This document shows positions 55,988 to 63,256 of a stretch of DNA of 64,000 nucleotides, piece by piece. The stretch's first letter is position 1. Every line of letters begins with the position of its first letter. Position numbers and translations under genes: made by a program. Source of the DNA: an uncultured Eubacteriales bacterium. Lineage in GTDB: Bacteria > Bacillota > Clostridia > Saccharofermentanales > UBA5734. The notes below the pieces were generated by a model. It searched no databases. It worked only from the letters and a program-made list of their open reading frames with translations, and was not told the origin of the DNA. The DNA is taken from contig CAILLO010000025.1 in NCBI GenBank assembly GCA_903835065.1, forward strand, positions 1 through 64,000. The letters run 5' to 3'.

Positions 55988-57307
55988 TCAGTCCCGGAAC
56001 CGGCCCGCGAGCCGGTCCGCCACGGGATAGTCCGCCGGGCACAGCGGCAGTCGGTCGAGTTCGTCGACGGGCACCCAGCGCGTCTCGCTGTGGGCGGTCA
56101 GGACGAACCCGTCGGCGCGGCCGAGCGTGGTGTCGAGGCAGGTCAATCGAACGGTCCGGTCCTCGTAGGCGTGCTCGACGACGATCAGCGGCTCCCCCGG
56201 CGAGGAATCCACGCCGAGTTCCTCCCGCAGCTCCCGCACGAGCGCCTGCTCCAGGCTCTCGTGCCGGTCGGCCTTGCCGCCCGGGAATTCCCAGAATCCG
56301 GCCAGCGACCGCTCGCCCGACCGCCGCGCCACCAGCACTTCGGTCCGTCCGTCCGCCCCGGCGCGCCGCACGATCGCGGCGGCCACGCGCAGCACGGTCC
56401 GCTTCGGCGTGCCGTCGGGCCAGGCCCGCGCCACCGAGGCCGCGTACATCCCCGTCCGCACCGGACTTCGGGTCATCCCGTGGAAATCGCTGCCGCGCGT
56501 CGGGATCAGGCCGACGAGTTCCGCCGCCCGGGCCAGCACCGCGACCTGACGGGCGAGCGCCTCCCCGTGGTGCGATTCGACGCCGCCGAGGCCCTGGGCC
56601 TTGAGTTCGCCGAGGCGCCGCACGAGCGTCGCCGGAAGACCCTCCGTCCGTTCCCGGTCCTCGAGCCAGCCGTACAGCACGGGGTGCGCGAGCACGGGCA
56701 CGCCGCCCGCCGCTCGGACCGCGGCGCAGCCGGCGGCGGCGTCCGGCCGCTCCCGCTCGACGTAGCCCGGTCGCCCGAAGGCCAGATACCGGTCGAAGGC
56801 CTCGCGCACCGAGCGGACCGCGCCCTTGCGCACCAACAGGCGGGCGGCGTGCAGGCGCCCGATCGTGCCGTCGCCCTCCGCGTCGAGTTCCTCCAGCGTG
56901 AGGGGAAGCCCGAGCGACCGCAGCGCGTCGACCATCGTCGCGTTGCGCCGGCGGCGCAGCGCGCGCTGCCGCTCGAGATACGGCTCGAGGGCCTCCTGGC
57001 CGCCCAGCGGGAAATAGCCGAGCAGGTGGAGCTCCCGCTCCTCCTGGATGCTCAACTCGATGCCCGGGAGGAAGCGGACGTCCGGCAGGTGCCGCGTCGC
57101 GTGCTCGAACGCGCATCGCGCCTCCGGCAGGCCGTCCAGCGTGTCGTGGTCGGTCAGCGCGACGGCGCGCAGACCGCGGGAGACCGCCTCCTCGACGACG
57201 TCGGAGGGGCGCTTCGTCCCGTCGGACGCGGTGGAATGGAGGTGCAGGTCGACCGGACCGGAGGCCAGGAGTTCCCGGAGCGCTTCCTCGGCGGCATTTT
57301 CGTGCAT
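55988..57307 (-). CDS. PHP phosphoesterase fused to a Nudix hydrolase
   Basis: A 439-residue two-domain protein. Residues 18 to about 285 are a PHP domain of the YciV/RNase AM type: VDLHLHSTASDGTKRPS, ALTDHDTLDGLPEA, GIELSIQ and the late TRGSDFHG. From about 300 to the end is a Nudix domain with the complete box: GGKADRHESLEQALVREL continuing REELGV. PHP members of this group hydrolyse nucleoside 3',5'-bisphosphates or RNA 5' ends; Nudix proteins like this clean oxidised dNTPs. Joining them suggests linked nucleotide housekeeping, which is inference. GGAGGGGAGAAGG precedes the ATG. Confidence 0.88.
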   Translation of the reverse strand: MHENAAEEALRELLASGPVDLHLHSTASDGTKRPSDVVEEAVSRGLRAVALTDHDTLDGLPEARCAFEHATRHLPDVRFLPGIELSIQEERELHLLGYFPLGGQEALEPYLERQRALRRRRNATMVDALRSLGLPLTLEELDAEGDGTIGRLHAARLLVRKGAVRSVREAFDRYLAFGRPGYVERERPDAAAGCAAVRAAGGVPVLAHPVLYGWLEDRERTEGLPATLVRRLGELKAQGLGGVESHHGEALARQVAVLARAAELVGLIPTRGSDFHGMTRSPVRTGMYAASVARAWPDGTPKRTVLRVAAAIVRRAGADGRTEVLVARRSGERSLAGFWEFPGGKADRHESLEQALVRELREELGVDSSPGEPLIVVEHAYEDRTVRLTCLDTTLGRADGFVLTAHSETRWVPVDELDRLPLCPADYPVADRLAGRFRD

Positions 57308-57337
57308 TCCTTCTCCCCTCCCCCTCTGGACGGGGAA

Positions 57338-57361
57338 GGCCCCGCCGCAACCGACGGGGCC
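57338..57361 (-). terminator. Hairpin after the EF-G paralogue
   Basis: GGCCCCGCCG, loop CAAC, CGACGGGGCC: a 7-bp outer stem, one C-A mismatch and two more pairs, in the 98-bp gap between the EF-G paralogue and the PHP-Nudix gene. No U-tract. Confidence 0.4.
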
Positions 57362-57405
57362 CCTCGGGTTTCCGTTCCGGACCGGTCCGTCGCGCAGGAG
57401 AGGAT

Positions 57406-59493
57406 CTACTCCTCTTCCACTTCTTCCTTCATGTGCGCCTTCGCGTCGGCAATCACCTTGTCGGCGACGATCTGCGGCGCCGTGTCGTAGCGTGCGAACG
57501 AGATCCTGTACCAGCCGCGCCCCTGGGTCATCGAGCGGAGGTCGTTGGCGTACTTGGCCATCTCGCTCTGCGGCACCTCGGCCACGACCTGCTGGCCGCC
57601 GTCGACGGGGTTGACGCCCATGATCCGGCCGCGGCGCTTGTTCATGTCGCCCATGATGTCGCCGAGGTTCGCGTCGGGGATGTAGACCTCGACGGTGCAG
57701 ATCGGCTCGAGCAGCACGGGGCCGGCCTGCGGGATGCCGGCCTTGTAGGCGAGGCGCGCGGCGATCTTGAAGGCCATTTCGGACGAGTCGACGTCGTGGT
57801 AGGAGCCGTCGACGAGCGTCGCCTTGAGGTGGACCATCGGGTAGCCCGCGAGCACGCCCTTCTTGATCGCGTCCTGCAGGCCCTTCTCGACGCCGGGGTG
57901 GTACTGCTTCGGGACGGAGCCGCCGAAGATGTTCTCGGTGAAGGTCAGGCCCTCGTCCGGGCCCGGCTCGAACTCGACCCAGACGTGGCCGAACTGGCCG
58001 TGGCCACCGCTCTGCTTCTTGTGCTTGCCTTCGACGCGGACCTTCTTGCGGATCGTCTCGCGGTACGGCACGCGGGGCTCGACCAGCACGCCCTCGACGT
58101 TGAACTTGGCCTTGAGCTTGGACATCAGGACGTCCAGGTGCTGTTCGCCGATGCCGGACAGCAACAGCTGGTGCGTTTCGCCGTTGTAGCCCATCGTGAA
58201 GACGGGGTCCTCGTCCTTGAGCTTGTGGAGGCCGGCGCTGATCTTCTCGTCGTCGCCCTTGGCCTTCCCCTCCACGGCCATCGAGAGGCAGGGGGTCGGG
58301 AACGAGGTGCGCGGCAGCAGGACGGGCTTCGCCTTGTCGCACATCGTGTCGTTGGTCCCGGTGTACACCAGCTTGGTCACGGCGCCCATGTCGCCGGCGG
58401 CGACCTGCTCGACCTGGACCTGCTTCTTGCCGATCATGAGGAACAGGGAGCCGATGCGCTCCTCCTTCTCGTTGGCGGGGTTGTAGATCGTGGAGTTCGC
58501 CTTCAGCACGCCCGAGTAGACGCGGAACATCGAGATGCGGCCGACGAAGGGGTCGGCGATCGTCTTGAACACGATCGCGGCGAGAGGGCCCGCCGGGTCG
58601 ACCTTCACGGTCGTGTCGGAGCCGTCGGGCTTCTTGGCCGGGACGGAGGCGGTGGCGTTGGCGGCGGGGAGCAGGGCGACGAGACGGTCCATCGTGCTGC
58701 GGATCGCCCAGTTCGAGCTGGCGGCGCCGCAGAAGACTGGGTAGACGGACCCGGCGTGGATGCTCTCGCCGAGGCCCTTCATCATTTCCTCGTTCGTGAA
58801 TTCCTCGCCGGCGAAGAACTTCTCCATCAGGGCCTCGTCGCTCTCGGCGGCGTGCTCCTTCAGGGCTTCGAGGGCGGCGGCGGCCTCCGCGGCCATGCCG
58901 GCGGGGACGGGCGCTTCGGTCGTGGCGCCGTTGGCGCCGTTCATGTAGGCCTTCTGGGACAGGACGTCGACGAATCCCTTCGTCTTGCCGCCTTCGAGGA
59001 TCGGGAGCGCGAAGGGCCTGGCCTGGGAGCCGAAGTGGGAGACGATCTGGCCGAGGGTGCGCTCGAAGTTGGCGTTCTCCTCGTCCATCTTGCTGATGAA
59101 GAAGACGACGGGCAGGCCGCGCTCCTTCGAATAGGCGACCGACTTCTCGGTGCCGACGGCCACGCCGTCCTTGGCGGGGACGAGCACGACGGCGGCGTCC
59201 GCCACGCGCAGGCCCTGGAAGACCTCGCCCACGAAGTCGAAATAGCCGGGCGTGTCGAGCAGGTTGATCTTGCAGTCGTTCCACTCGAAGGCGGCGAGGG
59301 CGGTGTTGATCGAGAACTTGCGCCGGATCTCCTCCGGATCGAAGTCCATCGTCGTGTTTCCGTCGGCCACCTTGCCGAAGCGATCGGTCGCCTTGGCATC
59401 GAACAGGACGGCTTCGGAGAACGTGGTCTTCCCCGAGCCGCCATGACCCATCAGGGCGATGTTGCGGATCTTCACAGCCGGATAGTCTTTCAT
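57406..59493 (-). CDS. Elongation factor G-like GTPase (EF-G paralogue)
   Basis: A 695-residue translational GTPase with the five-domain EF-G layout. G1 is GHGGSGKTT and G3 is DTPGYFDF. G4 reads SKMDEEN rather than N-K-x-D, and switch regions are divergent (NTTMDFDPEEIRRKFSI). Domain IV retains SGGHGQFGHVWVEFEP. These features fit the secondary EF-G-like group rather than canonical FusA, which is normally beside rpsL/rpsG. Its role may be in recycling or stress, but that is not readable here. The ATG at 59493 has GAGGGG upstream; upstream in-frame residues look non-coding. Confidence 0.9.
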   Translation of the reverse strand: MKDYPAVKIRNIALMGHGGSGKTTFSEAVLFDAKATDRFGKVADGNTTMDFDPEEIRRKFSINTALAAFEWNDCKINLLDTPGYFDFVGEVFQGLRVADAAVVLVPAKDGVAVGTEKSVAYSKERGLPVVFFISKMDEENANFERTLGQIVSHFGSQARPFALPILEGGKTKGFVDVLSQKAYMNGANGATTEAPVPAGMAAEAAAALEALKEHAAESDEALMEKFFAGEEFTNEEMMKGLGESIHAGSVYPVFCGAASSNWAIRSTMDRLVALLPAANATASVPAKKPDGSDTTVKVDPAGPLAAIVFKTIADPFVGRISMFRVYSGVLKANSTIYNPANEKEERIGSLFLMIGKKQVQVEQVAAGDMGAVTKLVYTGTNDTMCDKAKPVLLPRTSFPTPCLSMAVEGKAKGDDEKISAGLHKLKDEDPVFTMGYNGETHQLLLSGIGEQHLDVLMSKLKAKFNVEGVLVEPRVPYRETIRKKVRVEGKHKKQSGGHGQFGHVWVEFEPGPDEGLTFTENIFGGSVPKQYHPGVEKGLQDAIKKGVLAGYPMVHLKATLVDGSYHDVDSSEMAFKIAARLAYKAGIPQAGPVLLEPICTVEVYIPDANLGDIMGDMNKRRGRIMGVNPVDGGQQVVAEVPQSEMAKYANDLRSMTQGRGWYRISFARYDTAPQIVADKVIADAKAHMKEEVEEE

Positions 59494-60655: not shown

Positions 60656-61918
60656 CTACAGCAGCGACGTCACGAGCAGCGCGACCGACAGGACCGTGAG
60701 CACGACGATGGTCGCCCAGCCGATGAAGTTCGCGAGCGGCTTGTTGACGTGCGGACCCATGATCCCCCTGTCGTTCACGAGGCGCATCATGAAGACCAGG
60801 ACGACCGGCAGCAGGATGCCGTTGATGCGCTGCGACCAGAGCGAGATGCCGATCAGGGGGGCGTTCGGGATCAGGATCACGCCGGCGCCGACGAGGATGA
60901 TGAGCGTGTAGAGCCAATAGAACTGCGGCGCCTCCTTCCACTTCCGGTCGAGGCCCGCTTCGAAGCCGAAGGCCTCGCAGACGAAGAAGGCGGTCGCGAC
61001 CGGGAGGATCGTGGCGCTGAAGATCGACGCGATGAAGAGGCCGAACGCGAAGACCTCGGAGGCGAACTGACCGGCGAGGGGCGCGAGCGATTCGGCGGCG
61101 TCGGCCGCGGTCGAGATCGTGTGGCCGTTCACGTGCAACGTGGCGGCGCAGGCGACGATGATGAAGAAGGCGACCGCGATCGTGGCGACGCAGCCGACGA
61201 GGACGTCGAGCACCGTGAACTTGTAGTTCTTCATGGTCAGCCCCTTCTCGATGATCGAGGACTGCATGTAGAACTGCATCCAGGGGGCGATCGTCGTGCC
61301 GACGATGCCGATCACGGTCGCATAGGTGGTCGCGTCGTATCCGGTGAAATCGGGGTGGACGATCGAGGCGCCGATCTCGCCCCACTGGGGGTGCCCCAGC
61401 AGCGCCGACACGATATAGGTCAGCAGGGCCAGGCTGAACACCAGGAACACGCGTTCGGCGATCCGGTACGTCCCCTTCACGACGAGGATCCAGACGGCGA
61501 AGGCGACGAGCGGGACCGAGAGGTACTTCGAGACGCCGAAGATCGCGAGGCTCCCGGCGACGCCGGCGAACTCGGTGTTGGTGTTGAGGATGTTGGTGAC
61601 GAGCAGCCCCGCGAACAGGAAGAAGGTGATCTTGACGCCCGCGTTCTCGCGGATCAGGTCGGCGAGACCCTTGCCGGTCGCGAGGCCCATCCGGGCGTTC
61701 ATCTCCTGGACCACGAAGAGCACGACGAAGGACGGGATCAGCGTCCAGAGCAGCTTGTAGCCGTAGACGGCCCCCGCGACGGAGTACGTCGTGATGCCGC
61801 CGACGTCGTTGTCGACGCTGCCGGTGATGATGCCCGGGCCGAGCACGGCGAGGAACAGCAGCAGGTTCGCGAAGAAGGCCTTCCGGCGGGAGCGCGCGGG
61901 GGACGCGAGGGCCGTCAT
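60656..61918 (-). CDS. Nramp-related metal transporter with Mg-type (NRMT-like) signature
   Basis: A 420-residue integral membrane protein with about 11 helices of the LeuT-like SLC11 fold. In canonical Nramps helix 1 has D-P-G-N and helix 6 has M-P-H. Here helix 1 reads GPGIITGSVDNDVGGITTYS (D36, N37, D38) and helix 6 reads GTTIAPWMQFY, so Met becomes Ala211 and His becomes Trp213. Loss of that methionine marks the Nramp-related magnesium transporters. The gene seven bases upstream encodes an MgtE-type magnesium sensor, supporting Mg2+ as substrate. GGAGGT precedes the ATG. Confidence 0.85.
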   Translation of the reverse strand: MTALASPARSRRKAFFANLLLFLAVLGPGIITGSVDNDVGGITTYSVAGAVYGYKLLWTLIPSFVVLFVVQEMNARMGLATGKGLADLIRENAGVKITFFLFAGLLVTNILNTNTEFAGVAGSLAIFGVSKYLSVPLVAFAVWILVVKGTYRIAERVFLVFSLALLTYIVSALLGHPQWGEIGASIVHPDFTGYDATTYATVIGIVGTTIAPWMQFYMQSSIIEKGLTMKNYKFTVLDVLVGCVATIAVAFFIIVACAATLHVNGHTISTAADAAESLAPLAGQFASEVFAFGLFIASIFSATILPVATAFFVCEAFGFEAGLDRKWKEAPQFYWLYTLIILVGAGVILIPNAPLIGISLWSQRINGILLPVVLVFMMRLVNDRGIMGPHVNKPLANFIGWATIVVLTVLSVALLVTSLL

Positions 61919-61925
61919 GCGGCGG

Positions 61926-63173
61926 CTACCTCCGGCGGCGGGCGCGCATCAGCCCGTAGACGACGTCGTTGATGATCACGACGCCCGAGAGCTTCTTCTG
62001 GTCGTCGACGACGGGGACGGCCAGGAGGTTGTACTTGTCGATGATCTCCACGATCGCCTCGATCCGGTCCGTGTCGAGCACCGACTGGACCTTCTCGTTC
62101 ATCACCGCGCTCAGGCGCGTCAAGGGATCGGAGACGATCAGGTCGCGCAGGGAGACGGTGGCGATCAGCACGCCGGCGTTGTCGAGGATGTACAGGTAGT
62201 AGATCGAGTCGGACTCCGGCCGGATCCGTCGCAGCGTCTCGAACACGTCCTCCACCGTCTGGTACTCGTTGAAGGCGAAGTAGTCCTTGGACATCACGCT
62301 GCCGACCGTGCCGTCCTCGTATTCCATCAGTTCGCGGACTTCGTCGGACGCCTCGTCCTCCATTTCGTTCAGGAGGGCCTCCGCCTTCTCGTCGTTCAGG
62401 CCGTCGAGGATGTCGGCGACTTCGTCCGAGGGCATCGCCTCCAGCAGGTCTGCCGCGTGCTCGAGGGGGAGGTTCGAGAGGAGGGTCGCCTGCGTCTCGG
62501 GCTCGAGTTCCTCGAGGACGTCCGCGGCCTTCTCCTGGTCGAGGGAGGCGAACACGGCGATCTGCGCGTTGCGGTCGAGGCTGTCGATGATGTCGGCGAC
62601 GTCGGAGGGGTGCAGCCGGCCGATGCTCGAGGCGCGGGAGGAGAGGCGGAGACCCGCGTTGCCCGCGTCCACCGTCTGCACTTCGTCCCACAGGATCAGG
62701 TGGTTCGGGACCGCGATGTGGAACGGGCGCAGCAGCCGGCCGACCGGCCGGGCCACGCCGAGCCTGCGCAGCAGGCCCTCCATGCCCACGTCGACGGCGA
62801 CGAGGAAGGTCCCGTCCTCCAGGACGGCGAGGCGAAGGTCGTTCACCCGCTCGACCTTCCGGCCGTCGATGTCGACGATCTGCTTGTCCATCATCGTCCT
62901 GCGCAGCAGGATGCAGCACGTCTCGTCGTGCACGAAGGGGACAGGCTCCGAGCAGACCAGCGAATAGCGGCCCTTCTCCTTCTCGACGCGGAACTTCGCG
63001 TAGTCGAGGAGGACGGGTCCCTTCGCCGTATGGACGCGGATCGCGACGACCCGGGGGCGCACCGCGCCGACGTCGACCAGGACGTCCTTGATCCGTCCGA
63101 GCTTCAGGCCGATTTCGGAATAGAGGGGGGTGTCGAGGATCCGGCTGAGATAGAAGGTTCGGATCGCGGCCAT
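61926..63173 (-). CDS. MgtE-like cytosolic Mg sensor (PRC-barrel, MgtE_N, CBS pair) without a membrane domain
   Basis: A 415-residue soluble protein. Residues 1-165 contain PRC-barrel-like repeats (SRILDTPLYSEIGLKLGRIK). About 185-290 is an MgtE N-domain of acidic helical repeats (LHPSDVADIIDSL, LPLEHAADLLEAM, MPSDEVADILDGL). About 295-410 is a CBS pair (VGSVMSKDYFAFNEYQTVED, LLAVPVVDDQKKLSGVVIIN). In MgtE these domains bind Mg2+ and gate the attached channel. Here the five-helix membrane domain is missing and the Nramp-related transporter follows seven bases later. The ATG at 63173 has AAGGAGG upstream. Confidence 0.9.
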   Translation of the reverse strand: MAAIRTFYLSRILDTPLYSEIGLKLGRIKDVLVDVGAVRPRVVAIRVHTAKGPVLLDYAKFRVEKEKGRYSLVCSEPVPFVHDETCCILLRRTMMDKQIVDIDGRKVERVNDLRLAVLEDGTFLVAVDVGMEGLLRRLGVARPVGRLLRPFHIAVPNHLILWDEVQTVDAGNAGLRLSSRASSIGRLHPSDVADIIDSLDRNAQIAVFASLDQEKAADVLEELEPETQATLLSNLPLEHAADLLEAMPSDEVADILDGLNDEKAEALLNEMEDEASDEVRELMEYEDGTVGSVMSKDYFAFNEYQTVEDVFETLRRIRPESDSIYYLYILDNAGVLIATVSLRDLIVSDPLTRLSAVMNEKVQSVLDTDRIEAIVEIIDKYNLLAVPVVDDQKKLSGVVIINDVVYGLMRARRRR

Positions 63174-63227
63174 CGGAGTGCCCTCCTTGCATGTCGAGGG
63201 TGTCGGGCCAGTCGGTCCGTTCACCCC

Positions 63228-63256
63228 ATGATATCGAAGGGACGGAGGAGCGTCAA
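63228..63256 (-). promoter_or_regulatory. Promoter of the MgtE-like/Nramp operon
   Basis: Minus strand: TTGACG (63256-63251), 17 bp, TATCAT (63233-63228). The leader is about 48 nt, too short for an M-box magnesium riboswitch, and none is visible. Confidence 0.65.

Follow-up and report, generated by a model that had tools for sequence, protein, structure and literature searches.

We analysed a stretch of 64,000 nucleotides (the window) from an uncultured Eubacteriales bacterium (GenBank assembly GCA_903835065.1, contig CAILLO010000025.1), in which a gene for a soluble MgtE-like protein, hereafter the sensor, adjoins a gene for an Nramp-family transporter on the minus strand. The sensor gene (61926..63173; ATG at 63173, stop at 61926) encodes 415 residues and was delineated by Pfam, homologue alignment and a structure model. 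The transporter gene (60656..61918; ATG at 61918, stop at 60656) encodes 420 residues, and Pfam, motifs and a tree point to a Nramp-related magnesium transporter (NRMT). Seven bases separate the sensor stop from the transporter start. The initial annotation, made from the sequence letters, had described a 415-residue protein with an MgtE N domain and a CBS pair but no membrane helix, followed after 7 bases by an Nramp-family transporter; Pfam, hydrophobicity and the model agree with the first description, and the coordinates and the Pfam match to Nramp (E 5e-93) with the second.

The NRMT signature consists of DxxG for DPGN in helix 1 and TxxA or TxxT for A/CxxM in helix 6 (PMC8806188). The window transporter has D38-V-G-G41 at the DPGN position, in register with GPG, and TTIA-PW (residues 208-213; T208-T-I-A211) where canonical Nramps have AxxM-PH, and it thus carries the DxxG and TxxA forms. 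Further, W213 stands at the first histidine of helix 6b and no histidine stands at the second, so that both proton-path histidines are lost, and Q363 (the helix 10 Gln) and TEFAGV (with the helix 3 Glu) are kept, as they are in NRMTs. The helix 1 and helix 6 motifs had initially been read as DND for DPGN and A-P-W for M-P-H; both motifs are indeed non-canonical and the latter reading stands, but the former is ruled out by the alignment, in which DND (residues 36-38) starts two residues before DVGG (38-41), the segment that replaces DPGN. The closest solved relative is EleNRMT (7qia; E 3e-112), with MntH structures far behind. A tree built from 144 sequences pairs the window transporter with L061, from a Clostridiales bin with an M-box riboswitch before its operon (support 0.98); the clade around the two holds M-box-linked members from Bacillota and Bacteroidota, the wider clade takes in EleNRMT (support 0.94), and the DPGN Nramps lie outside. 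The proposed resemblance to Nramp-related Mg2+ transporters is therefore upheld by the signature, the best solved match and the tree, and on these sequence features we assign the window transporter to the NRMT type and predict that it is selective for Mg2+.

The sensor matches PRC (residues 6-64), MgtE_N (187-287; E 8e-27) and two CBS stretches in Pfam. In its structure model, which has a mean predicted local distance difference test (pLDDT) score of 89, residues 1-170 form two beta-barrel repeats, followed by a flexible linker (168-181); the C-terminal half comprises the helical repeat of the N domain, a CBS pair (~290-406) and a short basic helix (401-415; RARRRR), which stands where MgtE has its plug helix. 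The tandem PRC-barrel region (residues 1-176; Pfam, conservation and model) is encoded at 62646..63173 and the N domain with the CBS pair (residues 187-406; Pfam and mapping on T. thermophilus MgtE, TtMgtE) at 61956..62615, both on the minus strand. No membrane helix was found in the sensor, as its most hydrophobic stretch stays below the membrane threshold and its model has none, and the MgtE channel domain (PF01769) was detected neither in the sensor nor in the rest of the source genome. Against the mgtE equivalog the sensor scores 153, below the cut-off of 233, and a comparison of its N-CBS half with the cytoplasmic domain of MgtE (2yvy) gives a template modeling score (TM-score) of 0.86 over the MgtE chain at 35% identity. 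For the mapping of Mg2+ sites, TtMgtE letters 25-250 were taken from an alignment, and the letters before 25 and after 250 are putative. With the sites listed for T. thermophilus MgtE (PMC5882242), D218, D250, D254 and D403 of the window sensor correspond to TtMgtE E59, D91, D95 and D247. Across 94 sensors, the Mg6 residue D95 is kept without exception (94/94), the Mg4 residues D91 and D247 are each kept in 85 of 94, and the Mg7 residue E59 is Asp or Glu in 85 of 94.

The most conserved part of the sensor family is the second PRC repeat, whose motif in the window is MDKQIVDIDGRKVERVNDLRLA (family consensus LDKQIVDxxGxKVVRVNDxxLA, then GLLRRLG). Among the 299 genomes sampled from the phylum of the window, we counted 31 occurrences of the PRC block, all of them in sensors and none (0) on MgtE channels, and ~180 further genomes of this set gave MgtE-like matches that lack the block. 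The PRC region is the NRMT-specific part of the sensor and, as the initial annotation had suggested for the PRC-barrel-like N-terminus, a reasonable candidate for the docking part. In the literature that we could search, no paper joined PRC-barrel and MgtE. We also note that some Acidobacteriota sensors (L164 and L165) lie in open frames of 645-685 residues, with ~220-260 extra residues before PRC (their starts are putative), and that in one sensor (L048:2551-3850, G124) a frame change separates the PRC part from the MgtE part, with an intact NRMT gene downstream, as has been reported for C. acetobutylicum.

Conservation of the pair, a check that the initial annotation had called for, was examined in 596 genomes (299 Bacillota, 149 Acidobacteriota and 148 Nitrospirota), with cuts for core NRMTs placed where the score lists showed gaps (46% identity to the window protein for Bacillota; 330 profile bits for Acidobacteriota and Nitrospirota). 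Every genome in which a core NRMT was identified also had the sensor (120/120), and 120 of the 124 genomes with a sensor had an NRMT; the pair is conserved and, in this sample, inseparable. Core NRMTs occurred in 27/299 Bacillota genomes, all 27 with a sensor, and one more genome had a sensor, located at the end of a contig; in Acidobacteriota, NRMT and sensor occupied the identical 41/149 genomes; in Nitrospirota, NRMTs were found in 52/148 genomes, each of the 52 with a sensor, and a sensor alone in three. The Fisher values, ~1e-37 each, ignore shared descent and mean "no exception" rather than a probability. Inspection of 80 NRMT loci on GTDB contigs gave the sensor at the locus in 69 of the 75 with enough context, usually as the first gene of the pair; the gap between the two genes had a median of 7 bases. 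In each of the other six genomes a sensor lay elsewhere (6/6), and one of these sensors (G302, L139) adjoins a second Nramp relative, which is more distant. The two genes are unlinked or on different contigs in at least nine Acidobacteriota genomes, and in Peptococcaceae bacterium CEB3 the NRMT (L099) and the sensor (L138) lie apart, each behind its own M-box. An M-box precedes the pair at 14/19 loci of one set and at further loci of a second set. Because the adjacency recurs across many phyla, we conclude that the pairing is not due to chance.

No sensor-NRMT gene fusion, which would have argued strongly for contact, was seen in ~100 adjacent pairs, and long Acidobacteriota frames (up to 935 residues) considered as fusions were explained by frame overlaps or by N-terminal extensions. 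Three further observations concern additional or shared sensors. The sensor of one sampled Bacillota genome is identical to that of Desulfosporosinus acididurans. In a Desulfosporosinus-type genome (L045:6022-9408, G003), the NRMT-linked sensor has a paralogue that shares 83% identity with it and has no M-box. This paralogue lies 186 bases before a KimA-like potassium transporter gene, with a promoter-like stretch in the gap, and we rejected that transporter as a second partner: the arrangement is probably a chance neighbourhood rather than a change of partner. Another genome (L046:6131-7432, G155) has a third sensor with no adjoining transporter, and its two other sensors are linked to NRMTs.

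Contact between the two proteins was modelled with a fused chain, namely the read-through translation of the in-frame L061 pair with the stop as Gly and an alignment of 22 true pairs plus single rows. The model reached a predicted template modeling (pTM) score of 0.78 and a mean pLDDT of 90, values that belong to an artificially tethered chain with no mismatched control and with uninspected coordinates. The transporter alone makes up ~0.49 of the residues of this chain, 0.69 together with the PRC region and 0.76 together with the N-CBS half; the pTM of 0.78, set against these shares, hints that the sensor is at least partly placed on the transporter. The sensor modelled by itself gave a pTM of 0.54, which is close to the fraction of residues in its larger block (N-CBS) and is what one would expect if its two blocks had no fixed relative position. 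The models thus suggest, as a hint only, that at least part of the sensor docks on the transporter.

Overall, we consider it fairly likely that the sensor and the NRMT form one functional unit, in which the sensor is an obligate, soluble, Mg2+-sensing regulatory subunit that acts in trans. The wider proposition, that transporters of two unrelated folds share a single kind of Mg2+-sensing module in many phyla, built into the chain in MgtE and gating NRMTs as a detached, PRC-docked subunit, has in our view slightly better than even odds. By analogy with MgtE, the regulation is probably negative feedback. The N domain and the CBS pair would hold Mg2+ between them as in MgtE, at sites assigned by sequence, and the tandem PRC-barrel may anchor the sensor on the cytoplasmic side of the NRMT, as its conservation and the fused-chain model suggest. 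When cytosolic Mg2+ rises, the N-CBS module would close and, having no plug helix, could slow the transporter via the PRC region or the basic tail; inhibition at high Mg2+ is the direction that MgtE suggests. We know of no separate regulatory subunit for Nramp-fold transporters. Should the sensor prove to gate transport, work on isolated NRMTs has so far missed half of the machinery, and a gating module has passed from one fold to an unrelated one.

Shin et al. 2014 (PMC4072509) reported that most NrmT genes adjoin a gene for a homologue of the MgtE N-terminal domain, and speculated on a cytoplasmic feedback or chaperone role while leaving its function open. The pairing and the feedback proposal have therefore been known since 2014, and the suggestion of the initial annotation that an MgtE module controls a transporter of unrelated fold in trans, though the best reading of the pair, is not new, and the control it invokes is our inference. 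Several points weigh against such a regulatory subunit. First, C. acetobutylicum NRMTs restore Mg2+ uptake in B. subtilis without the sensor (PMC4072509) and EleNRMT alone transports Mg2+ in vitro (PMC8806188); the sensor is therefore not needed for transport as such. Second, when the fragment from Acidobacterium capsulatum was co-expressed with its NRMT, in the one such test published so far, Mg2+ rescue was no better, and the same NRMT rescued a Mn2+ uptake mutant, which indicates Mn2+ transport (PMC4072509). Better rescue is not what one would expect from a feedback inhibitor, and, as EleNRMT also carries Mn2+ in vitro (PMC8806188), Mn2+ rescue does not exclude Mg2+. Third, the sensor lacks Mg5 and the plug-helix sites Mg2/Mg3, and Phe227, which in MgtE stacks on ATP (PMC5529423), is Leu in the window sensor and in 80/94 sensors; with these losses, gating cannot copy MgtE in detail. 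Fourth, a few more distant Nramps share much of the signature, L194 (G158) among them, and occur where no sensor was detected. Fifth, the fused chain carries the limits given above. Finally, the window pair has no M-box: no Rfam family was found in the window, the contig up to position 75000 gave one tRNA only, and the 90-base gap between the end of the ABC transporter gene (same strand) and the downstream sensor gene is too small for one. The only M-box of the genome precedes not the pair but corA (L003, G000:C47:42685-43926), one of two CorA proteins encoded there.

The sensor might instead be a stability, assembly or membrane-targeting subunit that is bound to the NRMT by its PRC region and needed in the cell, with an MgtE-like part that does not gate. 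We regard this as unlikely, although the obligate co-occurrence and the fused-chain model argue for contact rather than for gating, and the absence of the plug-helix sites fits it. The acidic Mg4, Mg6 and Mg7 residues, above all the invariant D95 equivalent, are kept more strictly than is easily explained for a purely structural part, and the function of C. acetobutylicum NRMTs in B. subtilis cells that lack the sensor also argues against it. It appears quite unlikely that the signal read by the sensor is Mn2+ or an adenine nucleotide instead of Mg2+, with NRMTs carrying Mn2+ in some lineages. The Mn2+ rescue by the A. capsulatum protein would fit, CBS pairs often bind nucleotides, and the equivalents of Arg187/Asp188 (TtMgtE numbering) are retained in the window sensor; however, the Mg2+-sensing M-box stands before many such operons, including those of the nearest relatives of the window (L061, L063 and L073), the binding-site signature is that of proven Mg2+ carriers, the adenine-stacking Phe227 is replaced as described above, and Mn2+ transport by EleNRMT makes the rescue compatible with Mg2+. 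That the sensor buffers Mg2+ in the cytoplasm, or receives ions from the transporter as a metal chaperone, was put forward by Shin et al. (PMC4072509) and is in keeping with the acidic N domain. We hold it to be very improbable, since the cytosol contains millimolar Mg2+ and a few millimolar are enough to saturate the cytoplasmic sites of MgtE (PMC5882242), which does not suit a chaperone. Operon hitch-hiking of two general Mg2+ homeostasis genes without physical contact, which would also fit the short intergenic gap and a shared riboswitch, appears still less probable, given that the pair persists in genomes with unlinked genes, that the transporter is not found alone, and that full MgtE channels, which have no PRC block, occur without an NRMT in most genomes.

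Around the pair, a dihydrouridine synthase gene follows the transporter gene on the same strand, and a weak sigma-70-like promoter candidate (TTGACG-17-TATCAT; 63228..63256, minus strand) lies 55 bases before the sensor gene. A GTG at 63224, 51 bases upstream of the ATG, is a possible alternative start for the sensor, but homologues align from the ATG onward. Elsewhere in the window, a single open frame (55988-57409, minus strand) encodes both a PHP phosphoesterase and a NUDIX domain. Outside the window, the distant Nramp relatives L194 (G158), L188 and L189 carry DAGG or DAGA together with TTIA-PW.

The window pair resembles the NrmT-associated "MgtE-like fragment" arrangement (the Ca_c0685 operon and Acp2976/Acp2977; PMC4072509), in which a soluble homologue of the MgtE cytoplasmic domain likewise stands beside an NRMT. 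An M-box precedes many members of this kind but is not required, and the pair in the window is a further member, one that lacks riboswitch control and whose genome encodes no MgtE channel. The main text of Shin et al. 2014 (PMC4072509) makes no mention of PRC-barrels and does not examine the co-occurrence of unlinked copies; new here are that co-occurrence, including unlinked genes, the kept Mg4, Mg6 and Mg7 residues, the conserved second PRC repeat and the fused-chain model. The kept Mg2+ sites, the PRC motif and pairs that are unlinked yet inseparable make the role of the sensor, left open in 2014, simply testable. The window transporter shares with EleNRMT (eLife 2022, PMC8806188) the DxxG-TxxA signature, the Trp for the first helix 6b histidine and the helix 10 Gln, but EleNRMT was studied structurally without any sensor, whereas the window transporter has a sensor gene adjoining it. 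The other Nramp of the source genome (G000:C77, a canonical Nramp/MntH) belongs to the same fold family and, unlike the window transporter, has the DPGN and AxxM-P motifs and no sensor beside it. Finally, the sensor and the MgtE channel (2yvy, 2zy9 and 5x9g) have in common the N domain, the CBS pair and the acidic residues of Mg4, Mg6 and Mg7; the plug helix, the channel and the Mg2, Mg3 and Mg5 sites belong to MgtE only, and the tandem N-terminal PRC-barrel to the sensor only.
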